From Deferribacter desulfuricans SSM1 (GTDB lineage: Bacteria > Chrysiogenota > Deferribacteres > Deferribacterales > Deferribacteraceae), in NCBI RefSeq assembly GCF_000010985.1, contig NC_013939.1, positions 1,517,501 to 1,581,500 of the forward strand: 64,000 nt of DNA. The letters are read 5' to 3'. Positions 3,245 to 45,494 of this stretch are shown one piece after another. Every line of letters begins with the position of its first letter. Positions within the stretch are counted from its first letter, which is position 1. Below the pieces are notes generated by a model. That model was given only the letters and a program-made list of their open reading frames with translations, was not told where the DNA came from and did not search any database. The position numbers and the translations under genes are program-made.

Positions 3245-3325
3245 CCTGAGATTGCTTCGGCAACTTTTGTTGCCTCGCAATGACCAAAAATGCCGTCATT
3301 GCGAGCGTTAGCGAAGCAATCTGGG
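3245..3325. repeat. REPIN-like inverted pair, copy A
   Basis: Left hairpin ATTGCTTCG...CGCAATGAC (3251-3284) and right hairpin GTCATTGCGAG...GCGAAGCAATCT (3295-3322) face each other around a 10-base centre. Each half is itself a hairpin because ATTGC pairs with GCAAT. The left half carries an inner palindrome GGCAAC/GTTGCC, while the right half has the shorter tip CGTTAGCG. Related copies lie at 3406, 7854, 32491, 35233, 45417 and 53736. Confidence 0.85.
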
Positions 3326-32611: not shown

Positions 32612-33130
32612 TCAGTCTAATGAAAGATAAATATTTTTATACTCAATATATCTTAAAGCATAATTTTTAATTGATTCAATATCATCATCAGAGAGCTCTC
32701 TTACAACCTTGGCAGGACTGCCTTTAATTAAAACATTAGGAGGAAATTTTTTACCCGGAGGGATCAGAGTCCCAGCAGCCACAATGCTATTTTCAGATAC
32801 CACACTATCGTCCATAATTATAGCACCTAAACCAATCAAACAGTTATTATTAATCATACAACCATGAAGAACCACACCGTGTCCTATTGTAACATATTCG
32901 CCAATTTCAGTTGGATACTTATTTAAAGTACAATGGATAACAGAATTATCCTGAACATTTGAACCTTTACCAATTTTAATATAATTTACATCACCTCTAA
33001 TAGTAACATTATACCAGATACTAACATCATCACCCAAGCTTACATCCCCTATCACATCAGCGCTTTCAGCAATAAAAACTCTTTTACCAATGACTAGTTT
33101 CTTTTTTAACCTTTCCCTAATCTTTTCCAT
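32612..33130 (-). CDS. Gamma-carbonic-anhydrase-like hexapeptide protein
   Basis: 172-residue left-handed beta-helix protein of the YrdA/PaaY family. The three metal-ligand histidines are present: VIHCTLN and GHGVVLHGC. The hexapeptide pattern runs from about 15 to 145, and LIKGSPAKVVRELSDDDI closes the helix. It could be a zinc-dependent carbonic anhydrase or a CoA-thioester-related enzyme. It directly follows the histidine kinase gene with no gap. Confidence 0.8.
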   Translation of the reverse strand: MEKIRERLKKKLVIGKRVFIAESADVIGDVSLGDDVSIWYNVTIRGDVNYIKIGKGSNVQDNSVIHCTLNKYPTEIGEYVTIGHGVVLHGCMINNNCLIGLGAIIMDDSVVSENSIVAAGTLIPPGKKFPPNVLIKGSPAKVVRELSDDDIESIKNYALRYIEYKNIYLSLD

Positions 33131-34075
33131 TTAACACCTTTTAAGTACAACTGTGTATTTATTGTTATATTCATTACTATCAACTTTCATATCTATATCA
33201 TTTTTTACTGCAAGCTGCTTAGCTATATAAAGTCGATACTCAGGCTCATTTGTGTTGATTTCAATATTACTATTCACAAAATAATTTTTTATTTTTTCAA
33301 TATCTATACGCTTTCCAGAATCCTTAATTTCTATGAAAATATCATCATTTTTTTCATAAACATGTAATTCTATCATCCCTTTATCAGTATTTAAAACTGC
33401 AGCTAACGAAATATTTAGCAATAAACTATTAAGCACAGACTCTTTGAAAGATAATTTTGGAAAATTTTCAGGGATAAAATAATCAAAAATTAGTTTATCA
33501 TTATTCTTAATCAACCCTTTGATAGTGGAAATTATTGAATCGATAATATATTTAGGACTGTCACAAATAATCTCATCATCAACTTCAGATAAAGGTTTTT
33601 TAGCTAATTGAATTACATTATTAATCATAGAGTTCAATCTTTTAGCTGACTCATCAATCATTTTCAAGGAATTGACAATATCCTCTTTTTCCATTTCTTC
33701 AAAATCAGTTAGCAATAAAGATGTAAACCCTAAAATAGAATTTAAAGGTGTTTTGATTTCATGATTCATATTAAGTACAAGATTTTCGCTATATGATTTA
33801 TATGTTTCTAAGTCTTTTTTAGACTTTAACAATTGTTGATTTAAAGCATGAAGCTCTTCATTTGCAGCCTTTAACTCAGAAGCTGTTTGATTTAATTCCT
33901 CTATCTTTTCTTCAAGTTGTTTCTCCTTATCAGATAATTTCTTTATAACAAAAAAAGTTAGCAAAAATACATATAATGAGATGAGAACATCCGCAATGAA
34001 TATCAAATGATTATATTTTAATATTAAATAAACTATAAATACAAAAAAAGTTATAAATGCTGTTAGTTTATACAT
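33131..34075 (-). CDS. Orphan membrane histidine kinase with degenerate ATPase domain
   Basis: 314 residues. Two membrane helices (about 4-21 and 24-44) have almost no periplasmic loop, then a coiled coil (45-95) and a HisKA domain with NMNHEIKTPLNSILGF, His105. The C-terminal HATPase is weak: the G1 box reads IKDSGKRID instead of DNGxGI, and no clear G2 is seen, so kinase activity may be lost or altered. No response regulator is nearby. Its promoter is shared, head to head, with the XRE-cupin regulator. The ATG has AAGGAG 16 bases away, poorly placed. Confidence 0.7.
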   Translation of the reverse strand: MYKLTAFITFFVFIVYLILKYNHLIFIADVLISLYVFLLTFFVIKKLSDKEKQLEEKIEELNQTASELKAANEELHALNQQLLKSKKDLETYKSYSENLVLNMNHEIKTPLNSILGFTSLLLTDFEEMEKEDIVNSLKMIDESAKRLNSMINNVIQLAKKPLSEVDDEIICDSPKYIIDSIISTIKGLIKNNDKLIFDYFIPENFPKLSFKESVLNSLLLNISLAAVLNTDKGMIELHVYEKNDDIFIEIKDSGKRIDIEKIKNYFVNSNIEINTNEPEYRLYIAKQLAVKNDIDMKVDSNEYNNKYTVVLKRC

Positions 34076-34088
34076 ATTTCTATTTAAC

Positions 34089-34154
34089 TAACTCCTTGAC
34101 TTTTTATTATAAATTTAATATATAATTTAAAAACAAATAAAAATCAAGGAGTTA
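34089..34154. promoter_or_regulatory. Symmetric divergent promoters sharing one -10 box
   Basis: Plus strand: TTGACT (34096-34101), 17-base spacer, TATATA (34119-34124). Minus strand: TTGATT (34147-34142), 17-base spacer, the same TATATA. The arms TAACTCCTTGA (34089-34099) and TCAAGGAGTTA (34144-34154) are a perfect 11-bp inverted repeat centred exactly on the TATATA. The right arm also contains the regulator's ribosome site AAGGAG. Confidence 0.65.
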
Positions 34155-34156
34155 AA

Positions 34157-34693
34157 ATGAGCTACGGAGCTAAATTAAGAGAAATAAGAAAAAGATTAGG
34201 GATGACATTAGAAGATGTTTCACAAAAGACAGGGTTTACAAAGAGCTTTATCAGTCAAATAGAAAATGGGAAGAATTCTCCATCAATAGCCTCACTAAAA
34301 AAGATATGCTTTGCGTTAGGCATCACAATAAGTGAGCTTTTTGAAGATGAAAGAAATGTTGTATCTAAATTCAGCTATGATGATTACAAAGTTTTAAAAA
34401 ACAAAAATTTGGATATTTACTTTTTAGCAAGTAAACTTGTAAACAGAAAGTTAGAGCCGCTTATTTTAGAAATGCACCCAAACTCAGAAACAGGTTCAAA
34501 TTTTTATAATCATGTGGGTGAAGAATTTGGTTATGTGTTAGAGGGTGAAATAGTTGTTGTCATTGGTAATGAAGAATATGTGTTAAAAGAAGGGGAATCT
34601 ATATATTTTAGTTCAAATCTACCCCACAAAATAAAAAATAAAACTAATAAATTTGCTAAAGCATTTTGGGTTGGAACACCACCATCTTTTTAG
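34157..34693 (+). CDS. XRE-family regulator with C-terminal cupin
   Basis: 178 residues. An N-terminal HTH_3 domain (about 7-61: LREIRKRLGMTLEDVSQKTG, SFISQIENGKNSPSIASLKK) is followed by a cupin_2 domain (about 105-175: HVGEEFGYVLEGEIVVVIG, GESIYFSSNLPHKIKN). Relatives, such as PuuR-like proteins, sense small metabolites through the cupin. The ATG has AAGGAG 5 bases upstream. It probably controls its own promoter and the divergent kinase gene through the inverted repeat. Confidence 0.88.
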   Translation: MSYGAKLREIRKRLGMTLEDVSQKTGFTKSFISQIENGKNSPSIASLKKICFALGITISELFEDERNVVSKFSYDDYKVLKNKNLDIYFLASKLVNRKLEPLILEMHPNSETGSNFYNHVGEEFGYVLEGEIVVVIGNEEYVLKEGESIYFSSNLPHKIKNKTNKFAKAFWVGTPPSF

Positions 34694-35232: not shown

Positions 35233-35313
35233 CTCCAGATTGCTTCACTAATGCTCGCAATGACTGCATTATGGGGTCATTGCGAGGAGCAAAAGCGACG
35301 AAGCAATCTCATG
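35233..35313. repeat. REPIN-like inverted pair, copy D
   Basis: CTCCAGATTGCTTCACTAAT continuing to GCTCGCAATGAC, a centre ending GGG, then GTCATTGCGAGGAGC, AAAAGCGACGAAGCAATCTC. The left half has the short tip, the right half a longer one (GGAGCAAAAGCGAC). The CTCC and GAGA-like ends resemble copies A and E. Confidence 0.85.
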
Positions 35314-45416: not shown

Positions 45417-45494
45417 TCCAGATTGCTTTGCTAACGCTCGCAATGACGTCAATTTTTGGTCATTGCGAGGTAACAAAAATTGCCGAAGCAATTT
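45417..45494. repeat. REPIN-like inverted pair, copy E
   Basis: CTCCAGATTGCTTTGCTAAC continuing to GCTCGCAATGACG, then GGTCATTGCGAGGTAAC and AAAAATTGCCGAAGCAATT. It fills the gap between hypF and the Gld-type ABC operon. The left half has TTTG for TTCG. Confidence 0.85.

Follow-up and report, generated by a model that had tools for sequence, protein, structure and literature searches.

Bacterial transcript maps contain many bidirectional promoters, and leaderless mRNAs include the regulator transcripts of lambda cI and Tn1721 tetR. To our knowledge, selection maintaining bacterial bidirectional promoters has been little tested. In the promoters with symmetric or overlapping -10 elements described by Warman, Forrest, Wade and Grainger (PMC12825309, PMC10268837), divergent starts flank the overlapping -10s and polymerase binds in one orientation at a time. 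Start spacings of 10, 18 and 23 bp are common in E. coli, and basal activity was too low for competition in 5/5 tested promoters, competition appearing only after one direction had been strengthened (PMC12825309). In the control region of the EcoRV restriction-modification system, the polymerase sites of the divergent promoters overlap (PMC5333194), and both this region and Pr/Pc of pLS20 (PMC4207663) set a local regulator divergent from its neighbour, with the regulator operators mapped. The XRE-cupin local repressors PsdR, PauR and ErfA combine an HTH with a cupin domain and lie divergent from a conserved metabolic gene; Pseudomonas proteins of this type repress neighbouring genes, and some probably themselves (PMC7901475). 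The leaderless AhdI C protein transcript has its start codon at or near the first base and is devoid of a Shine-Dalgarno (SD) sequence (PMC5333194).

The locus reported here occupies 34084-34156 of the window, by which we mean the whole 64-kb stretch of DNA analysed, part of a 2,234,389-bp contig in a two-contig genome (2.54 Mb) of the order Deferribacterales. We consider it likely that this segment is a compact sigma-70-type bidirectional promoter with two overlapping -10 hexamers, and that the kinase transcript is leaderless in related genera (Table 1). As in the E. coli promoters, the predicted starts flank the -10s and are 23 bp apart, a spacing common there. Unlike those promoters, both directions drive protein-coding genes and have -35-like boxes, the arrangement is conserved in four families, and each -35 is embedded in the translation signals of the other gene; the E. 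coli promoters were mapped by experiment, whereas the Deferribacter locus is predicted. The regulator is divergent from its neighbour through overlapping promoters as in EcoRV and pLS20, but the partner is a kinase-like gene. The conserved metabolic neighbour, which PsdR, PauR and ErfA also have, is here a gamma-carbonic anhydrase gene, with the difference that the neighbours include the kinase-like gene. Whereas the leaderless transcript of AhdI encodes a regulator, here it is the kinase of the relatives that is predicted to be leaderless. Bidirectional promoters, overlapping divergent promoters beside local regulators and leaderless mRNAs are each known; what is new is their combination, kept in one clade and absent from the sister lineage, with -35s lying in the other gene's translation signals and with frozen codons. 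A literature search found no description of this locus.

Table 1. Features of the divergent promoter region and adjoining genes, in window positions
Feature	Position	Strand	Basis or remark
Gamma-carbonic-anhydrase-like gene	32612..33130	-	ATG directly after kinase stop codon
Histidine-kinase-like gene, 314 aa, divergent from regulator	33131..34075	-	ORF, Pfam
TTAAC element, candidate UP-type or regulator site	34084..34088	+	7 nt upstream of regulator -35
Inverted repeat, left arm, 11 bp	34089-34099		TAACTCCTTGA
Possible kinase SD, AAGGAG	34092..34097	-	16 nt before kinase ATG; overlaps regulator -35
Regulator -35, TTGACT	34096..34101	+	TTGAC kept in 23/24 loci
ATA triplet replacing kinase ATG of related genera	34108..34110	-	Alignment of 11 loci
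Predicted kinase transcript start	34110	-	34112 in alternative register
Kinase -10, TATATT (preferred)	34117..34122	-	Alternative TATATA 34124-34119
TATATA	34119-34124	both	Checked base by base
Regulator -10, TATAAT (preferred)	34121..34126	+	Alternative TATATA 34119-34124
Predicted regulator transcript start	34133	+	Placed 7 nt after -10; 34131 in alternative register
Kinase -35-like box, TTGATT	34142..34147	-	Only TTG conserved, remaining bases vary
Inverted repeat, right arm, 11 bp	34144-34154		TCAAGGAGTTA
Regulator SD, AAGGAG	34146..34151	+	Overlaps kinase -35; AAGG[AT]G in all kinase-bearing loci
XRE-cupin regulator gene, 178 aa (HTH_3 + Cupin_2)	34157..34693	+	ORF, Pfam

Pfam analysis revealed the XRE-cupin architecture in the regulator, with an N-terminal HTH_3 domain (E 1.3e-15) and a C-terminal Cupin_2 domain (E 2e-18); against the nearest NCBIfam model, PuuR (NF007408), it scores 96.2 bits, below the curated cut-off of 211. 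Orthologues with 61-94% identity are present in 23 other genomes, giving a comparison set of 24 genomes of the order Deferribacterales, 11 of them kinase-bearing and 13 kinase-lacking. L032 (808-1338) and L035 (825-1301) carry a further XRE-cupin paralogue, distant in sequence (31-35% identity), about 2.2 kb off on the far side of the carbonic-anhydrase gene, and G001 has one at a similar distance (C5:35934-36425); the window's genome has no paralogue that close, the others matching at 0.66-1.25 Mb. The carbonic-anhydrase gene adjoins the regulator locus in nearly all genomes, with the kinase gene between them only in 11/24. Given that the carbonic-anhydrase ATG directly abuts the kinase stop codon, the two genes probably form one operon. 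The divergent gene had been described as an orphan kinase, a label that may not hold in this genus, where key ATPase motifs are lost. Its product retains a HisKA domain (51.2 bits) with the phospho-acceptor His in the H-box HEIKTPL; the HATPase_c match of 21.3 bits is under the Pfam cut-off of 26.4, the N-box Asn is replaced (SLA for ENA), G1 reads DSGKR for DTGxG, and G2 is absent. A degenerate ATPase domain is found in the window's species, its sister and two further genomes of family f3 (besides the window itself, in L002, L013 and L014), and the motifs are canonical in the kinases of the other relatives. The kinase-like protein of the window may thus be a pseudokinase, perhaps inactive. 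Within the genus the kinase diverges fast, with 52% identity versus 94% for the regulator.

A base-by-base check of the intergenic region bore out the geometry of the original prediction, namely its coordinates, the 17-base spacings, the perfect 11-bp arms and their common centre. TTGACT on the plus strand and TTGATT on the minus strand are each separated by 17 nt from the shared TATATA, and the arms are perfectly complementary about 34121.5, the centre of TATATA. The right arm also covers the ribosome site of the regulator, as had been stated, the SD sequence lying within it. The pattern TTGA-N19-TATATA-N19-TCAA has a single match in the 2.54-Mb genome and none in the reversed control, against about 0.2 per genome expected from base composition alone. 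By itself, however, the 11-bp inverted repeat is only mildly unusual, because about 2% of shuffles produce one and the window holds 12 of such length, so that related sequences must decide. In detail, dinucleotide shuffling of the 81-bp gap gave an exact inverted repeat of at least 11 bp (gap at most 60) in 2.2% of cases, and none of 5000 shuffles had one with at least four G/C in an arm. The right-arm sequence occurs at four sites in the genome, two of which are the arms of this repeat. A generic promoter scan of the window listed neither divergent promoter, since TATATA lacks the T at position 6 that the -10 rule demands.

Comparison of the related loci revealed that the regulator promoter, TTGAC-N16/17-TATATAAT, is kept in 23/24 loci whether the kinase is present or absent. 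The first element of the block is CTTGAC or a close variant, and 12 of the 13 kinase-lacking loci keep the block, which is, on this conservation pattern, the predicted promoter of the regulator itself. Its -10 is TATAAT in 19/23 loci, with the variants TATAGT, TATACT and TATATT and the exception CATATA. As the final T is kept in 22 of the 23 and several variants alter only the weak fifth position, we read the regulator -10 as TATAAT rather than TATATA. Upstream of the -35, at a distance of 7-8 nt, a TTAAC or TTAAT is present in the kinase-bearing and most kinase-lacking loci, L015 excepted.

On the opposite strand, a TTG located 17 nt from TATATA is present in 11/11 kinase-bearing genomes and in 0/12 of the others. 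The distance from the -10 to the regulator ATG is 32 nt in all 11 kinase-bearing genomes and varies from 28 to 43 nt in kinase-lacking ones; at least five length changes occurred in 0.68 tree units of the kinase-lacking part versus none in 1.04 units of the kinase-bearing part, a difference with a chance of about 0.01. In the regulator tree, the kinase-bearing genomes group as a single clade (93/89) spanning four families. Their kinase -10 is TATATT in eight and a perfect TATAAT in two (L003 and L004) of the 11; L005 (Calditerrivibrio W28) has a degraded -10 block, TACATATA, and its kinase hexamer reads TGTATT. In nine genomes from three families, the kinase ORF lacks an SD sequence and starts inside the spacer of the regulator promoter, at 46 nt from the regulator ATG (45 nt in L016); 7/9 have no upstream in-frame start at all. 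In seven of these nine genomes the kinase ATG follows 6 nt after the end of the kinase -10 hexamer, and in L016 5 nt after it. Given that the hexamer would place the ATG at the transcription start, the A of this codon is the predicted first transcribed base in the related genera, and the mRNA is expected to be leaderless. In the window's genus, the ATG of the relatives has become ATA, there are about 20 additional nt, and the kinase gene begins at 34075. A TATAAT at 34111-34106 on the minus strand was also considered as the kinase -10 and rejected: the relatives carry the kinase ATG there, and no -35 fits. This hexamer is perfect in the window's genus only and might be a secondary kinase start.

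The kinase N-terminus in the nine genomes follows the pattern MxxSQxxKL. Codons 4-5 (AGT CAA) and 8-9 (AAG TTA) are identical in 7/7 representatives, and codons 2, 3, 6 and 7 vary. AGTCAA is the complement of TTGACT, the regulator -35, and AAGTTAA is the complement of TTAACTT, which comprises the upstream element. Among 42 fully conserved non-Met kinase columns, seven have identical codons, including all four N-terminal ones, as compared with 3/38 at the other conserved columns (hypergeometric p ~3e-4); AGT (14%) and AAG (21%) are minority codons. Because these frozen codons complement the regulator -35 and the TTAAC element, what is conserved is, on codon evidence, the DNA of the putative -35 and upstream element, read as kinase protein. 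The dual use is reciprocal, in that the TTG of the kinase -35 is complementary to the CAA of CAAGGAG, the SD sequence of the regulator. A C precedes AAGG[AT]G at 4/31 such sites in sampled DNA of these genomes, yet it is kept here in all four families.

These data enable us to propose a putative model of the promoter. In one orientation, polymerase would use the -35 TTGACT and the -10 TATAAT and produce the XRE-cupin regulator mRNA from about 34133; in the opposite orientation, it would use TTGATT and TATATT and produce the kinase-carbonic anhydrase mRNA from about 34110. As the two -10 hexamers overlap, in a block kept in 22-23/24 loci, only a single polymerase would fit at a time. The kinase -35 would lie within the SD sequence of the regulator, and the regulator -35 within the first kinase codons of related genera or the 5' leader in the window's genus; in the related genera, the kinase mRNA would be translated leaderless from the A of its ATG. 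Since the regulator promoter is much closer to consensus than that of the kinase, it would likely hold the kinase operon low. Repression of the shared promoter by the regulator is plausible, and would be expected by analogy, because the Pseudomonas XRE-cupin proteins repress their neighbours (PMC7901475). The two divergent promoters of the original prediction have stood: the plus-strand promoter is kept in 23/24 loci, the minus-strand geometry in 11/11 kinase-bearing genomes, and the kinase start codon fits in nine. Its mutually exclusive switch is not supported: steric exclusion follows from the geometry, but the basal activities of the E. coli promoters were too low for competition (PMC12825309), and a competition switch at the shared promoter is possible.

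A bidirectional promoter is well supported, and it probably has two overlapping hexamers rather than one TATATA. Several points count against this reading. With TATAAT and TATATT as the -10s, both -35 spacers are 19 bp (18 bp for the regulator in some genomes), above the optimal 17, whereas with TATATA they are 17 but the T at -7 is missing. The kinase -35 is conserved only as TTG, and since it overlaps the SD sequence CAAGGAG, part of this conservation has another cause. The 11 kinase-bearing genomes are not independent, because they form one clade, and about 6-10% of other ORFs likewise have a TANNNT hexamer close upstream of an SD-less ATG. It is therefore worth weighing the reading in which the regulator promoter is the only real one: CTTGAC faces CAAGGAG across AT-rich DNA, the symmetry is a by-product of this, and the kinase is transcribed from elsewhere, e.g. 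within the regulator gene. It agrees with a right arm that is the regulator's own SD sequence, with the bare TTG, with the absence of co-evolution between the arms and with the frequency of TATATA in AT-rich DNA; the match of the arms is indeed explained, as far as the alignments tell, by a predicted -35 facing an SD sequence. We nevertheless judge this reading improbable. It leaves unexplained why the kinase has SD-less start codons at a distance of 46 nt from that of the regulator, right behind TATATT or TATAAT, why a constant -10-to-ATG distance is seen in no group but the kinase clade, and why the C of CAAGG, unneeded for an SD sequence, is kept in four families.

The original prediction went further, with a single palindromic TATATA serving as the -10 for both strands, transcription from 34112 and 34131, and a regulator that binds the repeat to make an exclusive switch. 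The exact 17/17 geometry, found as TTG-17-TATATA-17 in most kinase-bearing genomes, fits this proposal, as does the repression of neighbouring genes, and in some cases of themselves, by XRE-cupin proteins (PMC7901475). Nevertheless, we regard it as very unlikely. TATATA lacks the -7 T, and the conservation pattern favours two hexamers, TATAAT and TATATT, offset by 4 bp; the predicted starts would be 19 bp apart in the TATATA register, and the position of the relatives' kinase ATG fits 23 bp. The condition set for the repeat, conservation next to orthologues of the two genes, holds only by half, since kinase-bearing genomes retain the core CTTG of the arms but not the full 11 bp: matches about the TATATA centre number 11/11 here, 7-9 in the other kinase genomes (4 in L016) and 1-6 in the kinase-lacking ones, so perfect symmetry is confined to the window's species. 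None of the 12 genomes that retain regulator and promoter but lack the kinase has the right arm. Moreover, the arms are 44 bp apart and each is non-palindromic, unlike a dimer site. An inverted repeat acting as a co-evolving operator was rejected, the arms matching at 7.2/12 positions within a genome versus 6.4/12 across families. A search of 17 representative loci, begun 30 nt ahead of the -35 and carried 16 nt beyond the first base of TATATA, yielded no conserved palindrome other than the -10; a diverged, short or more distant operator could escape it. Given a right arm that is missing from kinase-lacking loci and the failure to find another conserved palindrome, it is unlikely that the regulator uses the arms as its operator. 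A regulon search with TTTAATATATAAT-NN-AA gave 0-4 matches per genome with no shared second target evident, the window's own genome equalling the reversed control. An RNA hairpin, as attenuator or terminator, would make use of the perfect 11-bp arms but has a negligible chance of being right: no terminator-like site was found at the locus by the scan, and the candidate was discarded as the predicted transcripts start between the arms and each holds one arm only.

Returning to the bidirectional promoter with two hexamers, we tentatively suggest, at somewhat less than even odds, how it arose. A kinase gained in one clade would have recruited the reverse face of a regulator promoter already in place, such that the -35 and the TTAAC element came to serve as the first nine kinase codons, the kinase mRNA was leaderless and the kinase's own -35 was fixed in the ribosome-binding site of the regulator, while exclusion would couple expression of kinase and regulator. 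The locus provides a natural comparison between the same regulator promoter with a divergent gene (four families) and without one (mainly one family), in which the fixed spacing and the frozen codons are confined to loci having the divergent gene. A further lesson is that a protein N-terminus (here S4-Q5 and K8-L9) can be dictated by the promoter of another gene.

Apart from this locus, the window contains a dispersed inverted-repeat element at about 3249-3322, 35254-35286 and 45437-45469, with arms CTCGCAATGAC ... GTCATTGCGAG and flanks AGATTGCTTC/GAAGCAATCT. The arm sequence GTCATTGCGAG has 127 copies in the genome, compared with 0 in the reversed control.
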